Shown here one piece after another: positions 16,421 through 54,389 of a DNA stretch of 64,000 nucleotides (positions are counted from its first letter, which is position 1; each line of letters opens with the position of its first letter). A program made the translations under genes and the position numbers. Source of the stretch: a bacterium (GTDB lineage Bacteria; Verrucomicrobiota; Verrucomicrobiia; Limisphaerales; UBA11358); the NCBI GenBank assembly GCA_021780905.1, contig JAJXXW010000028.1, positions 84,752-148,751 of the forward strand, in the 5' to 3' direction. The notes under the pieces are model-generated. The model did no database searches, had not been told where the DNA came from, and worked only from the letters and a program-made list of their open reading frames with translations.

Positions 16421-16565
16421 GAGCGTTTCCACTTTTCATGTAGCGCCGTCCGTCCCGGCGGCGGGTTGAAAGCACCGTCCCGATGACTTGGGGAGACCGG
16501 GCGGCGAGACGCCGCCGCAACGTGCCGGCGCGGACGCCTGCGCTACCTCATTTTCGGAAACGCTC
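16421..16565. mobile_element. 145-bp MITE/ERIC-like element, copy 1
   Basis: Perfect 10-bp TIR GAGCGTTTCC...GGAAACGCTC; internal GCGGCG-aga-CGCCGC hairpin; near-identical copy at 51651-51795. Confidence 0.85.
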
Positions 16566-17335
16566 TAACTGACAAACTTCGGCTCAAAAACCGGACCGAG
16601 GTTGTGTTTGCGGAGCAACTCGCAGAATTTCGCGATGGCGCACTTTTCGTCCGCGCCGAGGTGAAACTGGATGTGCCACTCGAAATAATCGCGCCGGAAA
16701 TCCGCGTCAAACTCCGCGCGCGTCTCGATGATGTGATCCAGCGTCTCCATGCCGAAGCGTTTGGCCTGCCGCAGTTCGCGGCGCAGTTCCGTGTTTTCGA
16801 CGCCGCGCCGCAGCGCCCAGACCGCATAAACAAAGGGCAGATTCGTCAGCTCCGACCAAGCGTAGCCGAGGTCGAAAATCTCGTGCCGGTGCGCGGAGCG
16901 CTGGAATTCAATCGCGGGGTCGCCGATGAGCAGGACAAAATCTTTTTCCCGCGCGGCAGCGTAGTTCGCCAGCGGCTTGAATTCGGGGAAAAGATTTTTT
17001 TCCGCCAGCAGCACTTTCAGCAGGTTGACGCTGGTGAGCGACGCGGGGTCGCAGAAAATCTCCTTCGCCTCGGCCAGCGGCTTTTGGTGAGCCAGAATCA
17101 CGCTGTAAACCTCGCCGAGCGAACCGATGGCCACGCCGTCGAGAATGTCGTAGCGGTCGTGGAGCAATACTTCGGTGATGCTGACGAGCGCGGCGTCCAG
17201 TTCGTCGCGCCGGAGCATTTCGGCCAGTCTGGCGGGCGTGGCCAGAATCAATTCGCTGTCCAGATCGCGTGTGAGCGGCGCGGCGTTGAGATAGGGCACG
17301 GAGCCGATGCGGAATTTTTTTTTGTCGCCGGCCAT
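16565..17335 (-). CDS. mqnA: Chorismate dehydratase MqnA (futalosine menaquinone pathway)
   Basis: MAGDKKKFRIGSVPYLNAAPLTRDL..., SITEVLLHDRYDILDGVAIGS, WSELTNLPFVYAVWA. Confidence 0.88.
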   Translation of the reverse strand: MAGDKKKFRIGSVPYLNAAPLTRDLDSELILATPARLAEMLRRDELDAALVSITEVLLHDRYDILDGVAIGSLGEVYSVILAHQKPLAEAKEIFCDPASLTSVNLLKVLLAEKNLFPEFKPLANYAAAREKDFVLLIGDPAIEFQRSAHRHEIFDLGYAWSELTNLPFVYAVWALRRGVENTELRRELRQAKRFGMETLDHIIETRAEFDADFRRDYFEWHIQFHLGADEKCAIAKFCELLRKHNLGPVFEPKFVS

Positions 17336-31547: not shown

Positions 31548-32831
31548 GTGAGCATCATTGATGAATTAAAATGGCGCGGGCTGGTGGCCGATTGCACCGA
31601 TGCGGCGGAGTTGGAGAAGAAAATCGCCGCGCCCCTCACGCTTTACTGCGGCTTCGACCCCACCGCCGACAGCCTGCACGTCGGCAATCTCGTGCCGCTG
31701 CTCGCGCTGCGGCGGTTCCAACTGCTCGGCCATCATCCCATCGCCGTCGCCGGCGGCGCGACCGGCTCCATCGGCGATCCCAGCGGCAAGTCCGCCGAGC
31801 GCCAGCTCCTCACCCAGGAAATTTTGGATCACAACATCGCCAGCGTGAAAACGCAGCTCGCGAAGCTGCTCGATTTTGAAACGAAGCAAAATCCCGCGCG
31901 GCTCGTGGACAATGCAAGCTGGACGGCGGGCATTTCCTTCCTCGATTTTCTGCGCGACATTGGGAAGCATTTTTCCGTCAACCAGATGGTCGCCAAGGAA
32001 TCCATCCGCGCCCGCATGGAAGACCGCGAGGTGGGCATCAGCTACACCGAGTTCAGCTATATGCTGCTCCAGGCGTTCGATTTCATGGTGCTGTGCCGCG
32101 ACGCAAACTGCGAACTCCAGATTGGCGGCAGCGATCAGTGGGGCAACATCACCGCCGGCATCGAACTCACGCGCAAAAAGCTCGGCAGACAGGTCTATGG
32201 CCTGACGCTGCCGCTCATCACCAACGCCGACGGCTCGAAATTCGGCAAGACCGTCGCCGGCGCCATCTGGCTCGCCCCGAAACGCACCAGCGTCTATAAA
32301 TTCTACCAGTTTTGGATCAACACCGACGACCGCGACGTCATTCGCTATTTGAAATATTTCACATTTCTGGCACAGGCAGAAATCGAGTCGCTGGAAAAAC
32401 AGCACGCGGAAAATCCGGGCACCCGCATCGCGCACAAGGCGCTAGCTCGTGCCGTAACTGAATTGATTCATGGCGACATTCCGACGGCCAACTCAATTCT
32501 GGCAAGTAGAACACTTTTTGGAGAAGAAATTGACCCGTTAAGTTCTGGTCAAGATTACTTTGAAATTATTCTTGGCGAAGTGCCAACAATAGAAATCAAA
32601 ATCACAAAACTTGGCGGCTTGGGTGTGCCATTGGTGGAATTGCTAGTTGAGTCCAGACTATGCACCTCGAAAGGTCAAGCGCGGAAAGACATTGAAGGAG
32701 GTGGAATTTATGTAAACAACAGTCGCGAGACGAATGTCACGCGTTCCGTCACATTGAGAGATTTGCTATTTAACAAGCATTTTCTGCTTCGCAAGGGCAA
32801 AAAGAATTACATCGCAGTAACGGCGAAATAG
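31548..32831 (+). CDS. tyrS: Tyrosyl-tRNA synthetase (apparently chimeric: 3' third from a lower-GC source)
   Basis: LYCGFDPTADSLHVGNLVPLLALRRFQ, GGSDQWGNITAGIEL, SKFGKTVAGAIWL; GTG start; composition shift near 32440; C-terminal S4 segment duplicated at 34115-34264. Confidence 0.95.
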   Translation: MSIIDELKWRGLVADCTDAAELEKKIAAPLTLYCGFDPTADSLHVGNLVPLLALRRFQLLGHHPIAVAGGATGSIGDPSGKSAERQLLTQEILDHNIASVKTQLAKLLDFETKQNPARLVDNASWTAGISFLDFLRDIGKHFSVNQMVAKESIRARMEDREVGISYTEFSYMLLQAFDFMVLCRDANCELQIGGSDQWGNITAGIELTRKKLGRQVYGLTLPLITNADGSKFGKTVAGAIWLAPKRTSVYKFYQFWINTDDRDVIRYLKYFTFLAQAEIESLEKQHAENPGTRIAHKALARAVTELIHGDIPTANSILASRTLFGEEIDPLSSGQDYFEIILGEVPTIEIKITKLGGLGVPLVELLVESRLCTSKGQARKDIEGGGIYVNNSRETNVTRSVTLRDLLFNKHFLLRKGKKNYIAVTAK

Positions 32832-32833
32832 CT

Positions 32834-34087
32834 ATGAAATTGAATTGTAGCCGGCGTTTCAGGATTCTTTTCTTGATGATGTCAGCGATTGCTTGTTCAA
32901 CGGCCGGGTTTGGACAAGATTTTGTTTGGACGCAAACCAGTGCAACAAATCTAAATTGACAAGCTATCGCCTCAACGTCCGATGGGATGAAATTGGCTGC
33001 TGTGGCGACCGGAGATTATATCTACACCTCAACAAATTCTGGCGCGACTTGGACTCAACAAACAGGTTCTTTCATAATGAATTGGTCTAGCATCGCTTCA
33101 TCAGCGGATGGGACAAAATTGGTGGCGACCGCACAATCTAGCGGGATTTTTATTTCAACAAATTCTGGGATTACTTGGGCTCGATCTGGTGCACCCAATG
33201 AAAATTGGCAAGCAGTCGCTTCATCCTCTGATGGCACAAAGCTGGTGGCTGCAACTTATGGTGGTTATGGCACTTCGACCGAGGGTGGAATTTATGCCTC
33301 AACCGATTCAGGAAATACTTGGAATAAAACCGGTGCGCCCACGTTTTTTGATGGGCGCTACAACGACGTCTATAGTTGGCAAGCTATCGCATCATCTTCG
33401 GATGCGGCTAAATTCGCAGCAGTAGTTTACGGTGGTCCGGTTTTCACATCACAAAATTCGGGAGCTACATGGGCCCAGACTTTCGCGCCTAATGCTGCTA
33501 ATTGGACTTCCATTGCGTAATCATCGGATGGAACAGTTCTCGTCGCCGGTTCACCTGGCGGTATTGTTTATGTTTCAACAAATTCAGGAACAAATTGGAA
33601 AAACGACAGCGGAACGAACAACTTAAATGGTTGGATTTCTATTGCTTCATCATCGAACGGATTGAAATTGATAGCGGCAGTTTCCGGCATCGGAATTTAT
33701 GCCTCAACCAATACAGCGAGTATGTGGGCACTAACCAGTGCACCTCACAATTTGCAGTGGCATTGTATCGCCACATCATCGGACGGAACAGAAATTGCCG
33801 CTGGTGCACAACCAAACTCTTTCGGTGGTGGAATTTGGATCGGGAGAATCAGAATTTTGCCGACGCTGAATATCATTTCAACCAACGCTTCAGCCTCAAT
33901 GGCCATAATGCCAAACGGGAAAAACCTGATGATTGGACAGGCTTATCAATTGCAAATTTCGAGCGATCTTAAAAATTAGACAAATTTCGGAAATGCTTTC
34001 ACCGCGACAAATAACAACTGGGCGGGCACGAATTGTTGGAATGTGGCGAATACGAACCAAGCATTTTTCCGGCTGCAAATGTTATAA
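32834..34087 (+). pseudogene. Secreted BNR/sialidase-like repeat surface protein, inactivated by three nonsense codons
   Basis: One frame from MKLNCSRRFRILFLMMSAIACSTAGFGQ to AFFRLQML*, interrupted by TGA (32957-32959), TAA (33518-33520) and TAG (33977-33979); repeats of (N)WQAIASSSDGTKLVA..GGIYASTNSGNTW. Confidence 0.85.
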
Positions 34088-34114
34088 AAAATTTGCGGTT
34101 TTCTTCCGGAGGAG

Positions 34115-34264
34115 ATCAAAGACATCGAAGGCGGCGGTGTGAACATCAACAACGTCCGCGAAGCCAGTGCCGCGCGGTCCGTGGCCGCCGGTGATTTGCT
34201 TTTCGGCAAACACGTCCTGCTGCGCAAGGGCAAAAAGAATTACGTCGTGGTGACGGCGGTGTGA
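34115..34264 (+). pseudogene. Orphan 3' remnant of tyrS (displaced native C-terminus)
   Basis: IKDIEGGGVNINNVREASAARSVAAGDLLFGKHVLLRKGKKNYVVVTAV* parallels the intact tyrS C-terminus RKDIEGGGIYVNNSRETNVTRSVTLRDLLFNKHFLLRKGKKNYIAVTAK*. Confidence 0.9.
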
Positions 34265-48936: not shown

Positions 48937-51591
48937 ATGTCAGCCATCAAAAATCCCGAAGGCCAGCAAACTGCCGACCTGTTGCGCGATGCGGCGACCA
49001 GCGAAAGTGCCATCATCCTCGAACGCCTGAAAACCTCGCCCGCCGGCCTGACCGAAGAGGAGGCGGCGGAAAGGCTAGAGGTGTTCGGCCCGAACGAAGT
49101 CGCGCATGAACGAAAACACGAGTGGTTGCACCGGCTGTGGACCGCCGTGCGCAACCCGCTGGTGGTTTTGCTCACCGTCCTTTCCATTCTTTCCTACGCC
49201 ACCGATGACATTCCCGGCGGCACGCTGATGCTAATCATGGTGATTCTCGGCGTGGCGCTGCGCCTCGTGCAGGAAACCCGCGCCGGCAACGCGGCGGCGA
49301 AGCTCAAGGCGATGATCAAAGTCACCGCCACCGCGCTGCGCGACGGCCAGCCGAAGGAAATCCCGCTGCAACAGCTCGTGCCCGGCGACGTGGTAAAACT
49401 CTCGGCCGGCGACATGATTCCCGGCGACGTGCGACTCATCGCGGCGAAGGATTTGTTCATCATCCAAGCCACGCTCACCGGCGAATCATTGCCGGTGGAA
49501 AAACACGACCTGACGGACACGCGCACTGGCGTCTCATCCATCGAGCACACGAACATCTGCTTTCTCGGCACCAGCGTGGAAAGCGGCGCGGCCACGGGCG
49601 TCATCGTCGCCACCGGCGCGCAAACTTATTTTGGAAAAATGGCGAGCAGCCTGTCCGGCCAGCAGACGGACACGGCGTTCGACAAGGGCGTGAAAAAATT
49701 CGTCTGGCTCATGCTGACCTTCATGCTGGTGATGGTGCCGATGGTATTTTTCATCAACGGCCTGATGAAGCACAATTGGAAGGACGCCTTTTTCTTCGCG
49801 ATGGCCGTCGCCGTCGGCCTCACGCCGGAGATGCTGCCGATGATCGTTTCCGTCTGTCTTTCCAAGGGCGCGCTGGCGATGTCCAAGAAAAAAGTCATCG
49901 TCAAAAAACTGAATTCCATCCAGAACTTCGGCGCGATGGACGTGCTCTGCACCGACAAGACCGGCACGCTGACGATTGACCACGTCATCCTCGAACTGCA
50001 CGTGGACGTGTTCAAAAAGGAAAGTGATGAGGTGTTGCGCGACGCGTATCTCATCAGCCATTTCCAGACCGGATTGAAAAACGTCCTCGACCGAGCGGTG
50101 CTGAAATACAAGCAACTTCACGGCGAACTCGGCATTGATAAATACAAGATGGTGGACGAAATCCCGTTCGACTTCTCGCGCCGCATGATGTCCGTGGCCA
50201 TCGAACTGCCGAACGGCGAGCGCCAGTTGCTCACCAAAGGCGCGCCGGAAGCGGTGTTTGCCAAGTGCTCGCACTTCGAGAGCGAGGGCGAAATTTTGCC
50301 GATGGAACCGATTCTCGTCGGCGACCTGGTGCAGCAGGTGAACGATTTGAGCGAAGACGGTTTTCGCGTGCTCGCCGTGGCCACCAAGAAACTCGGCGCG
50401 CAAACCACCTTTACCAAGGCCGACGAAAGCGATTTGGTGTTGACCGGTTATCTGGCGTTTCTCGATCCGCCGAAGGATTCCGCCGCTAAGGCCATCACTG
50501 CTTTGCGGCAAAACGGCGTGACGGTGAAAGTTTTGACCGGCGACAATGACCTCGTCACGCGCAAGGTGTGCAGCGAAGTCGGCATCCACGCGGAAAAAAT
50601 CCTGCTCGGCAGCCATGTGGAAAAATTGACGGAAGACGAATTGTGCAAGGAAGTCGAGACGACGGACGTGTTCGCGCGCCTCTCGCCGACGCACAAAAAG
50701 CGCGTCGTGCAGGCCTTGCAGAAGAACAAACACGTCGTCGGCTTCATGGGCGACGGCATCAACGACGCGCCGGCGCTGCGTGCCGCCGACGTCGGCCTAT
50801 CTGTGGACAATGCGGTGGACATCGCGAAAGAATCCGCTGACATGATTCTGCTCGAAAAGGATTTGATGGTGCTGGAGGAAGGCGTGCTGGAAGGCCGGAA
50901 AGTGTTCGTCAACATTTTGAAATACATCCGCATGGGTGCGAGCTCCAACTTCGGCAACATGTTCAGTGTGCTCGGCGCCAGCGCGTGGCTGAAATTTCTG
51001 CCGATGCAGCCGATCCAGGTGCTGACGAACAATTTGCTCTATGATTTCTCGCAGGTGCCGATTCCGACGGACAACGTCGGCACGGCGGTCATTTCCAAGC
51101 CGCGCCCGTGGGCGATGGGCGAGATCGCCAAATTCATCGTGTTCATCGGGCCAATCAGCTCCATCTTCGATTACACGACGTATGCGCTGATGTATTTTTA
51201 TTTCAAGTGCGGCAACCTCGGCCTCGTGCCGCCGTCGCCAGAACTCGTCGCGCGTTTTGCGAGCGCCAAGGACAGCGACCACACCTACGCCGCCGCGCTG
51301 TTCAGCACCGGCTGGTTCGTGGAATCACTGATGACGCAGACGCTCATCGTCCACGTCATCCGCACGAACCAGATTCCCTTCATCCAGTCGCGCGCAAGCT
51401 GGCAGCTCACGATGACGACCCTTGCCATCATGCTCGTCGGCGCGATTCTGCCGTTCTCGCCGCTGGCGCAGTATCTGGGCTTCGTGCCGCTGCCGTGGCA
51501 GTTCTGGCCGCTGTTGGGAATCACCTTGATTTGCTACGTCGGCCTGACGCAGCTCATCAAGCAGTGGATGGTGAAGAAAAAGTGGATTTGA
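48937..51591 (+). CDS. mgtA: Magnesium-translocating P-type ATPase (MgtA-like)
   Basis: 884 aa; DKTGTLT, FGPNEVAHERKHEWLHRLWTAVRNPLVVLL, MAVAVGLTPEMLPMIVSVCLSKGALAMSKKKVIVKKLNSIQNFGAMDVLCTDKTGTLT. Confidence 0.92.
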   Translation: MSAIKNPEGQQTADLLRDAATSESAIILERLKTSPAGLTEEEAAERLEVFGPNEVAHERKHEWLHRLWTAVRNPLVVLLTVLSILSYATDDIPGGTLMLIMVILGVALRLVQETRAGNAAAKLKAMIKVTATALRDGQPKEIPLQQLVPGDVVKLSAGDMIPGDVRLIAAKDLFIIQATLTGESLPVEKHDLTDTRTGVSSIEHTNICFLGTSVESGAATGVIVATGAQTYFGKMASSLSGQQTDTAFDKGVKKFVWLMLTFMLVMVPMVFFINGLMKHNWKDAFFFAMAVAVGLTPEMLPMIVSVCLSKGALAMSKKKVIVKKLNSIQNFGAMDVLCTDKTGTLTIDHVILELHVDVFKKESDEVLRDAYLISHFQTGLKNVLDRAVLKYKQLHGELGIDKYKMVDEIPFDFSRRMMSVAIELPNGERQLLTKGAPEAVFAKCSHFESEGEILPMEPILVGDLVQQVNDLSEDGFRVLAVATKKLGAQTTFTKADESDLVLTGYLAFLDPPKDSAAKAITALRQNGVTVKVLTGDNDLVTRKVCSEVGIHAEKILLGSHVEKLTEDELCKEVETTDVFARLSPTHKKRVVQALQKNKHVVGFMGDGINDAPALRAADVGLSVDNAVDIAKESADMILLEKDLMVLEEGVLEGRKVFVNILKYIRMGASSNFGNMFSVLGASAWLKFLPMQPIQVLTNNLLYDFSQVPIPTDNVGTAVISKPRPWAMGEIAKFIVFIGPISSIFDYTTYALMYFYFKCGNLGLVPPSPELVARFASAKDSDHTYAAALFSTGWFVESLMTQTLIVHVIRTNQIPFIQSRASWQLTMTTLAIMLVGAILPFSPLAQYLGFVPLPWQFWPLLGITLICYVGLTQLIKQWMVKKKWI

Positions 51592-51650
51592 TTCGTGAAA
51601 AATTAAAATCCCGTTGCGATTTATTGCCGACCAATGCGCCGGTGGATTTA

Positions 51651-51795
51651 GAGCGTTTCCACTTTTTATGTAGCGCAGTCCGTCCCGGCTGCGGATTTAA
51701 AGCGCCGTCCCGATGCCTTGGGGAGACCGGGCGGCGAGACGCCGCCGCAATATGCAGGCGCGGACACCTGCGCTAACTCATTTTCGGAAACGCTC
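51651..51795. mobile_element. 145-bp MITE/ERIC-like element, copy 2
   Basis: GAGCGTTTCC...GGAAACGCTC TIR, flanked by TA on both sides (ggatttA|GAGCG ... CGCTC|TAatt); same length and orientation as 16421-16565. Confidence 0.87.
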
Positions 51796-54389
51796 TAATT
51801 GGTTCCCGCTTTCAGCGCTGTTCTTTTCTGTTCGAGCAGTTCTTTCAACGGGGGGAGCAAGGTCTCCAGACGGTCAATGAATTTGTCCACGTTGCCGTCG
51901 CCGGTGGCGTTAAAAAGCGGCAACGCCTGCAGACCAGCCTTCTTGGCCCAAAAGCCATTGGCGGTCGGGTCATAGACCACGTCCCGGTAGAGGTTCAGCG
52001 CCTGCAATTTCAGCTCTTTCTGGGTGGCGGGCGGCGCGGTCTCGGCCATTTTTTCCAAGGCGCCGGCCCAGCCGACCCGGGCACGGCCGCGCAGGCGGGC
52101 CGTTGCCTGAATTGAGTTGGCCACCTGCGCGTAGGCGTTCGTGGCCGCGTCCAGCGCGCCGAGTTGAAGATTGCAGTCGCCGGTTTCACTCAATGCCAGC
52201 AGGCCCAGTTGGTTCGTCGGCGGGATTTGGCCGAGGACGTTGGTGGCGAGCTGAAAATTCGCCAGGGCGTTGTTCGTGTCGGTGGAAATCGTCTGCATCA
52301 ACGACGCAGCGTAAGCCAGCCGCGTCTGGTCTTTCACCCCGACCGGGCAGGCGCTGGCGGGATCGAGCAGTTTGGCAAAATAGGCGTTGGCGTCGGAAAA
52401 GCCCAGCCGGCCCATCGCCGCCCGGCCCGCCATGAGTTGCGCGGGATAAACCAGGCCGGAATTTTTCCACGCCGGCGTCTGGAAGATCAGCTCGTAGTTT
52501 TTTTCCGCGCCCTGGTAATTCGTCCCGCTGCGAAAGCAGTAATCCGCCACCCACCACTGCGCCAGCGGCGCCAGGTCGTTGGTGGGGAACGCCGCCACGA
52601 GACCCGAAAAAATCCGGAAGGCGTTGGTCTCCCGGCCCGCCTGGAAATCGGCCCGGCCCAGCGCGTATTGCACCTGCGGTTGCAGGTCGTTCCTCGGATA
52701 GGTTTTCAGCCAGGTCTCGTAGTTTGTGATGGCCGCTGGCCAGTTCTGCCCGCGCTCGTAGGTGCGCGCCACGGCCAGCGCCACCTGCGGCGCCAGCGGA
52801 GAATCGGGAAACAGGGTGGCGAATTGCTGAAAGACTTCCCGGGCCTTTTCCGGCAGGCCAAAATCCGTGAACGCCTCGCCGGCGAGCAGCAGGCTGTTGT
52901 CCGCAAAATCACTCGCCGGAAAATCCGCCAGCAATTTCCGCATCGCCGCCTCTGCGCCGGCCATGTCGGCCAGATTCAAATCGGCCCGCAAAATCTGGTA
53001 GAGCGCGCGGTCGCCTAGGGATTTGGCCACTTCGGGAATATTGCCGAACTCGTCCCGCACGGCCTCATAATGGCGCCGGGCACCGGCAAAATCCTGCAGC
53101 ACAAACCGGGCGTCGCCAGCCTTGAATTCCGCCACGGCCCGGTCTGCCGACGGCGGCAGAAGCCGCGCGGCCGTTTCAAAGTCCGCCAGGCTGTTGGTCA
53201 TGTCGTTACCCAACCACTCGCACCAGCCGCGATCCAAATGGCCCTTGCCGGCGAGCGGATTATTTGTGCCTGCGCCGAGCAACTGATCGAACCGGGCCTG
53301 CGCCGCCGCCAGGTGATTGGTCGCCGCCGCCGGCGGATTGGTGGCCGTCAGTGAGGCGGCATAATCTTTCAGGTGCAGTTCGCCCAGTGTCAGCAGCGCC
53401 AGCCCGGACACGGGCGAACCCGCAAACTGCGTGAGAAGATTTTCCAGCTTGTCCTCGGCCAGGGCCGAATTTCCCTGCGCCGCCGCCAGCGCCGCGATTT
53501 TAAGCACCGCCTCCTGCTGGCGCTCCGCCGGCGCGGCGTTGGTCAGATTCGCCGCCCACGCGGCGGTCGCTTCGGCCAGCAGATTTTTCTTCTCCAGCGC
53601 CGCCGCGTGGAGCGCCACACCGTCGGCGAATTGTTCCGGCGTCTGCGCGGCCGCCAACAGATTCGTGGCGGCGGACAGCGCCGCCCCGGGGTCGTTCAAG
53701 CCGAGTTGGACCTGATAGAGCAGATTCAAACGCTCCCAGTTTTGTTCAGGCTTGAGCGTTTGGGGATTCAGGGCGTCCAGAATTTTCCCGGCGGCGGCAA
53801 AATTCCTCCGCTCCAATTTTGATCGGGCCAGGGAGAGCCGGCCGCTGGCGACCAGTGGATTGTCCGGATTCAATTGCGCCGCGCGCGCAAAAACCCCGTC
53901 GCCGGCCTCCAGCAGCGCGTCGTGGCGCGGCCAGTCGCCGAGCCGCGCATAGGCCGCCGCCGCCTCGACCACGGCTGTCAGGGCCAGCGGCGAACCGGGA
54001 AAATTTCTGGCGAGCGCCACCAGGGTCTCCGCCGCGCGCGCAAAATCCTGCTGCGCGAACTGAACCTCGCCGAGCCAGTAGGCGTAGCGGTCGGCCAGAC
54101 TGCCGGCATCCGCCGCGCCGGCCGCCAGCAACGCGCCGGCGGCGGCGAACTTGCCCTGTTTGAACTGCGCCTGCGCTTCCAGCAGCCGCGCCGGCGGCAC
54201 CTGTGCTGACTTGGGGAAACGCTGGATGAAGTCCGCGAGTTCCGTTTCCGCCTGGCTCCAGTTCTCATCCTGAAACATCGTGGTCGCCGTCGCGAAGGCG
54301 CGGTCCTCCCGCACGCCGCCGGCGGACAGCGATCCGCCGCCCAGGACGAACGTGGAAAAAATCAAAAGCCATCGCCGGCAAAAGGCCAT
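51795..54389 (-). CDS. Large secreted TPR protein
   Basis: 864 aa; repeated FPxSPLAPQVALAVARTYERGQNWPAAI-type TPR units. Confidence 0.82.
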   Translation of the reverse strand: MAFCRRWLLIFSTFVLGGGSLSAGGVREDRAFATATTMFQDENWSQAETELADFIQRFPKSAQVPPARLLEAQAQFKQGKFAAAGALLAAGAADAGSLADRYAYWLGEVQFAQQDFARAAETLVALARNFPGSPLALTAVVEAAAAYARLGDWPRHDALLEAGDGVFARAAQLNPDNPLVASGRLSLARSKLERRNFAAAGKILDALNPQTLKPEQNWERLNLLYQVQLGLNDPGAALSAATNLLAAAQTPEQFADGVALHAAALEKKNLLAEATAAWAANLTNAAPAERQQEAVLKIAALAAAQGNSALAEDKLENLLTQFAGSPVSGLALLTLGELHLKDYAASLTATNPPAAATNHLAAAQARFDQLLGAGTNNPLAGKGHLDRGWCEWLGNDMTNSLADFETAARLLPPSADRAVAEFKAGDARFVLQDFAGARRHYEAVRDEFGNIPEVAKSLGDRALYQILRADLNLADMAGAEAAMRKLLADFPASDFADNSLLLAGEAFTDFGLPEKAREVFQQFATLFPDSPLAPQVALAVARTYERGQNWPAAITNYETWLKTYPRNDLQPQVQYALGRADFQAGRETNAFRIFSGLVAAFPTNDLAPLAQWWVADYCFRSGTNYQGAEKNYELIFQTPAWKNSGLVYPAQLMAGRAAMGRLGFSDANAYFAKLLDPASACPVGVKDQTRLAYAASLMQTISTDTNNALANFQLATNVLGQIPPTNQLGLLALSETGDCNLQLGALDAATNAYAQVANSIQATARLRGRARVGWAGALEKMAETAPPATQKELKLQALNLYRDVVYDPTANGFWAKKAGLQALPLFNATGDGNVDKFIDRLETLLPPLKELLEQKRTALKAGTN

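Follow-up and report, generated by a model that had tools for sequence, protein, structure and literature searches.

RUP is a MITE of IS630-Spn1 in pneumococcus. The element described here shares with it a length in the range of about 107-145 bp, the terminal inverted repeats (TIRs) of an IS630 insertion sequence (IS), a TA target, a tight fold in which the TIRs are paired, and over-representation between convergent genes (PMC2229807, PMC3049150). A convergent bias is also reported in pneumococcus for BOX and for IS elements, and for RUP and the IS elements it has been read as a sign that insertions are tolerated there, downstream of genes (PMC3049150). BOX of Streptococcus pneumoniae shares this bias, and in 36 cases the repeat supplies the stop codon of a gene with no evident truncation of the protein (PMC3049150), as is also seen here.

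GTAG REPs and REPINs, together with their RAYTs, are the other relevant group. They have in common with our element a GTAG tag, head-to-head hairpins, and a position downstream of genes (PMC3733652; PMC2817692, PMC3116915). They also have a RAYT gene as neighbour; in the genome described here the units next to the RAYT have the layout of our cassette but different stem sequences. Di Nocera et al. (2013) describe GTAG-15 dimers in Anabaena variabilis that lie inside long palindromes starting with TA (PMC3733652). At the locus described here, too, a GTAG REP dimer is framed by a long palindrome with TA at the start of its outer end. This 145-bp repeat, from a Verrucomicrobia genome whose relatives place it in subdivision 3, is very probably an IS630-type MITE like RUP, carrying a GTAG hairpin cassette.

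The 145-bp element and its copies

The stretch of DNA analysed (the window) is 64,000 nucleotides long and contains two copies of the element. The features at the two sites are:

51651..51795, plus strand: putative MITE, copy 2; GTAG...CTAC cassette of four hairpins within a TIR frame of IS630 type
51651..51675, plus strand: left 25-bp end of copy 2, GAGCGTTTCC-ACTTTTTAT-GTAGCG; 5 mismatches to the end of the IS630-family IS of the relative G212
51771..51795, minus strand: right 25-bp end of copy 2, GAGCGTTTCC-GAAAATGAG-TTAGCG; differs from that IS end by 5 mismatches
51670..51776, plus strand: GTAG...CTA(C) cassette with four hairpins; also found TIR-free in relatives
51649..51650, no strand: left TA, probable target-site duplication
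51796..51797, no strand: right TA, probable target-site duplication; together with G51795 it makes up the TAG stop codon of the TPR gene on the minus strand
48937..51591, plus strand: mgtA-like P-type ATPase gene, ending 59 bp before the element
51795..~54389, minus strand: TPR protein gene, stop codon overlapping the element
16421..16565, plus strand: putative MITE, copy 1
16565..17335, minus strand: mqnA, TAG stop overlapping copy 1

Copy 2 is bounded by perfect 10-bp TIRs (GAGCGTTTCC/GGAAACGCTC) and has TA on both sides. Copy 1 is also 145 bp long, has the identical orientation and is 92% identical to copy 2; it has TA on its right side only, the left flank being TG. The original prediction had given these coordinates, the length, the common orientation and the two TA flanks of copy 2, had placed both copies between convergent genes, and had read the TAG stop of the minus-strand gene as the flanking TA plus the terminal G of the element. 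All of this was confirmed, the last point for both mqnA and the TPR gene.

A BLAST search of the 3.89-Mb draft genome (E-value 1e-54 for copy 1) gave ten dispersed matches: six full-length copies, one that lacks the first 16 bp, and three that are fragments. At C10:38872-38999 there is an eleventh element, which has the same ends with another core. No transposase gene exists within the 145 bp. TA is found at 12 of the 18 element ends that could be scored in this genome, while the background is about 2.9% TA per intergenic base. The copies differ from each other by 8-16% and TA is missing at the other six ends, so the family looks old. The predicted RNA fold of the element is far stronger than that of shuffled sequences on either strand (z -4.8, and -5.3 on the other strand). 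A search of the plasmid collection gave no match, and nothing in Rfam scored above chance (the best score was 16.7 bits, for Atu_C7, where the cut-off is 45).

The small number of copies in the window would, taken with nothing else, fit a chance inverted repeat or a duplicated and immobile intergenic spacer. The dispersed genome matches refute this reading, and the sharp ends of the copies, their unrelated flanks and the presence of the same frame across several families of the order also speak against it; its probability is close to nil.

Some other features lie beside the copies or elsewhere in the window. To the left of one copy (L007), the predicted gene C46:2069-2440 looks as if part of an ABC-ATPase had been joined to the tail of a membrane protein, and its TGA end falls exactly at the element; it is possibly a pseudogene or an assembly joint. 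A second repeat, CCCACTAGGAAATATCCGGGCTA, adjoins two copies, at the left flank of L006 (C54:67993-68015) and at the right edge of L008 (C80:45112-45134). It has 23 sites in the genome at two or fewer mismatches, and some of these (C72, C41) are no more than a few hundred bases away from stretches of IS630 transposase sequence. Diverged repeats (families D2, D3, and D5) with spacings of about 126-144 bp at window positions 32685-34258 are likely a repeat protein.

An IS630-type frame and a GTAG cassette

A complete 996-bp IS with TA on both sides and 25-bp TIRs (three mismatches between them) exists in the relative G212 (L067:1501-2496). Two overlapping reading frames of this IS contain HTH_23 and DDE_3 domains (3.4e-35 for DDE_3), and the transposase belongs to the IS630 family by the NCBIfam model NF033545 (134.7 bits against a cut-off of 100). 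Its 25-bp end, GAGCGTTTCCATAAATAATGTAGCG, was compared with all 128,000 positions of the window on both strands. The four element ends match at 4, 5, 5, and 5 mismatches; they are the only sites within eight mismatches, and the next best site has nine. Because the end of a TA-flanked IS630-family IS matches only the four element ends in the window, the element is read as an IS630-type MITE. The original prediction of a non-autonomous mobile element with a TA target is supported by this match and by the TA flanks, and the autonomous IS with the same TIR, which it had proposed to look for, is the one in G212.

IS630 transposase sequence adjoins the same end in another relative (G152), and also in G149 and G161, there at the edges of contigs. 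In five contigs of the latter two genomes (L065, L078, L061, L074, and L081) the break falls within an IS630 copy that has the GAGCGTTTCC end, as is expected of a recent multi-copy IS in draft assemblies. In the draft genome under study, no autonomous IS with these ends was found; the TIR is absent from all ten of its DDE_3 stretches. MITEs in which this frame surrounds other cores are found in two relatives (G119, 99 bp, and G063) and in this genome (the eleventh element above). The arrangement of exact GAGCGTTTCC, nine bases, and GTAGCG is common to several families of the order. A pattern of the TIR followed by GTAGCG matched in 18 of 244 genomes of the order, where some of the single matches with other spacings are likely due to chance. 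A stricter pattern matched 12 stretches in the genome contig collection, nearly all titled Verrucomicrobia, subdivision 3 or Pedosphaera, and one titled 'bacterium'.

The interior has a distribution of its own. BLAST matches in relatives end at element positions 18-20 and about 125, which are the GTAG and the CTAC, and their flanks are unrelated. Cassettes without TIRs, sharply bounded at GTAG and CTAC, are thus found in relatives of the genus and the order. An alignment of 16 cassettes from inside and outside TIRs folds into four local hairpins closed by GTAG/CTAC. In this alignment 95% of the cells are paired and nine pairs have changed on both sides, a covariation that none of 500 shuffles reached, and sliding the alignment destroys the hairpin signal.

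The genome also contains a tyrosine transposase gene (L048:1426-2124, minus strand, in C81), identified by the REP_Tyr_transpos model NF047646 (93.3 bits against a cut-off of 80). This RAYT gene adjoins eight tandem 138-bp units (the whole region being L048:1426-3222), each running from GTAGCGCAG through four hairpins to CCTAC. Their layout is the same as that of the element cassette, and their stem sequences are different. The first unit of the array starts at the base adjoining the ATG of the RAYT gene. The GTAG...CTAC hairpins, the free copies in relatives and the RAYT beside units of the same layout indicate, by comparison of sequences, that the cassette is REP-like.

Could the whole element be a REP/BIME-type repeat moved by a RAYT, its outer GAGCGTTTCC palindrome being a target site or an extended arm? 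The GTAG-tagged cassette does exist alone in relatives, a RAYT lies beside cassette arrays in the same genome, and the Anabaena variabilis GTAG-15 dimers lie in TA-starting long palindromes (PMC3733652). However, the outer frame is also found around unrelated cores and as the ends of a TA-flanked IS630-family IS, and in the genome under study the cassette type was found only inside this frame or as a fragment. In addition, the orthologous gap in G014 (see below) points to an empty site with only TA, not to an empty GAGCGTTTCC palindrome. This reading is quite improbable. No RAYT gene flanked by the GAGCGTTTCC TIR (TIRtron) was found among six Y1 loci.

With the IS630-type MITE as the preferred reading, the following mechanism may be proposed. 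An IS630 transposase would act in trans, recognise the ends (GAGCGTTTCC, nine nucleotides, and GTAGCG), insert the element at TA and duplicate the TA. The interior is not a deleted transposase gene. It is a cassette of four hairpins in which two arms, each with the GTAG tag, face each other head to head, and it resembles the REP type thought to be mobilised by tyrosine transposases (RAYTs). GTAGCG is common to the cassette and to the inner end of the IS630 TIR; it would be their joint and the point at which the cassette was captured. The joint could also have formed by recombination or by descent (no intermediate was seen), and the sharing of GTAGCG may be a coincidence, the motif being short. 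A broader model is that of two nested systems, in which the inner GTAG of the IS630 TIR would repeatedly admit RAYT-type cassettes and the second transposase would spread them at TA, tolerated even in TAA stops that become TAG. We regard this model as conceivable yet doubtful.

Stop codons, convergent gaps, and transcript ends

The mgtA/TPR gap exists without the element in the nearest relatives (G014, G016, and G005). The TPR gene ends with AAT TAA in G014 and with AAT TAG here, and joining the flanks of copy 2 after removal of the element and one TA restores AAT TAA as in G014. Copy 2 would thus have entered the TAA stop codon of this gene at its TA. As G is the first base of the element, TAA would become TAG and the protein would stay unchanged. 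Orthologues of mqnA end at the same final residue (KFV plus one) with TGA, TAA, or TAG as stop, and the flanks of copy 1 would fit an earlier TAA if the outer TA has undergone a single T-to-C change. These comparisons support the view that both window copies inserted at the TA of an ancestral stop codon and that the protein ends stayed as they were.

The original prediction had made such settling at stop codons recurrent. It stands for the two window copies, whose orthologues end at the same residue, and not as a general rule. Of the intergenic TA sites, 7.0% lie in stop codons; within convergent gaps the share is 12.4%. Among ten copies with both neighbouring genes called, two overlap a stop codon in the form TA|G, and a third overlaps the TGA of the methyltransferase gene left of L008. 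The excess gives P 0.15-0.36 for two of ten and 0.03-0.12 for three of ten under the looser criterion, and the two window copies that gave rise to the idea are counted in its own test. There is no good evidence of a general stop-codon preference, as the hits do not clearly exceed chance.

The bias toward convergent gaps is real, and its direction is clear in this small sample of ten. A comparison of the copies with intergenic TA sites, along the lines that the prediction had suggested, showed enrichment: seven of the ten copies lie in convergent gaps and none in divergent ones, against 17.8% of the intergenic TA sites in convergent gaps (P 4e-4). Without the two window copies, five of eight are convergent (P 0.006). 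These gene-context statistics rest on a home-made, approximate gene caller applied to 763 kb (about 700 kb of stretches plus the window) with 620 genes. Convergent gaps, in which an insertion leaves both genes unharmed, would be the main place where copies persist, and the element may now form the 3' end of both transcripts.

In the relatives, the mgtA/TPR gap has a strong hairpin near the mgtA stop (z -5.9 in G014, -5.6 in G016, and -4.0 in G005), followed in G014 by a T run. In this genome, the 59-bp stretch between mgtA and the element has no fold better than that of shuffled sequences (z +0.6), and the element alone is a strong structure in the gap. If an old terminator decayed after the arrival of the element, this would agree with a role of the element as its replacement. 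A conserved CGCCGTTC...GAACGGCG hairpin is found in the gap downstream of mgtA in relatives (L083 637-671; L085 and L086 about 1755-1790) and is absent here. A strong stem followed by a T run was not found in the element; there is one weak match, where 0.6 are expected by chance.

Selection might place or keep the element at convergent ends, making it a host-maintained bidirectional module that terminates or protects both mRNAs. Seven of ten convergent copies would agree with that, as would the loss here of the strong gap hairpin of the relatives (z -4.0 to -5.9), with the element as the sole strong structure. Yet insertion tolerance gives the same convergent bias, as reported for RUP, BOX and IS (PMC3049150). 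The element also lacks a strong stem with a T run, its stop-codon overlaps are not clearly above chance, and its copies are neither all intact nor uniform. We consider maintenance by the host unlikely.

Comparison with known repeats

The element adds one more member to a known class of bacterial repeats and does not amount to a new system; its structure is composite. It differs from RUP in host phylum and TIR sequence, in its GTAG four-hairpin interior and in its far smaller number of copies. BOX has an unrelated sequence and a different proposed parent IS. With ERIC and Correia elements, compared by layout, it has in common the general layout of MITEs. The element represents, for the Verrucomicrobia, an IS630 MITE whose parent can be identified, and shows how an element starting with G can enter a TAA stop without changing the protein. 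It is also a case of a REP-type hairpin cassette travelling inside the ends of another transposon. Compared with GTAG REPs, the cassette here packs four hairpins into about 106 bp and sits between IS630 ends. The Anabaena variabilis arrangement appears, by analogy, to be equivalent; no transposase was connected with its frame there, whereas the frame here matches an IS630 IS (PMC3733652).
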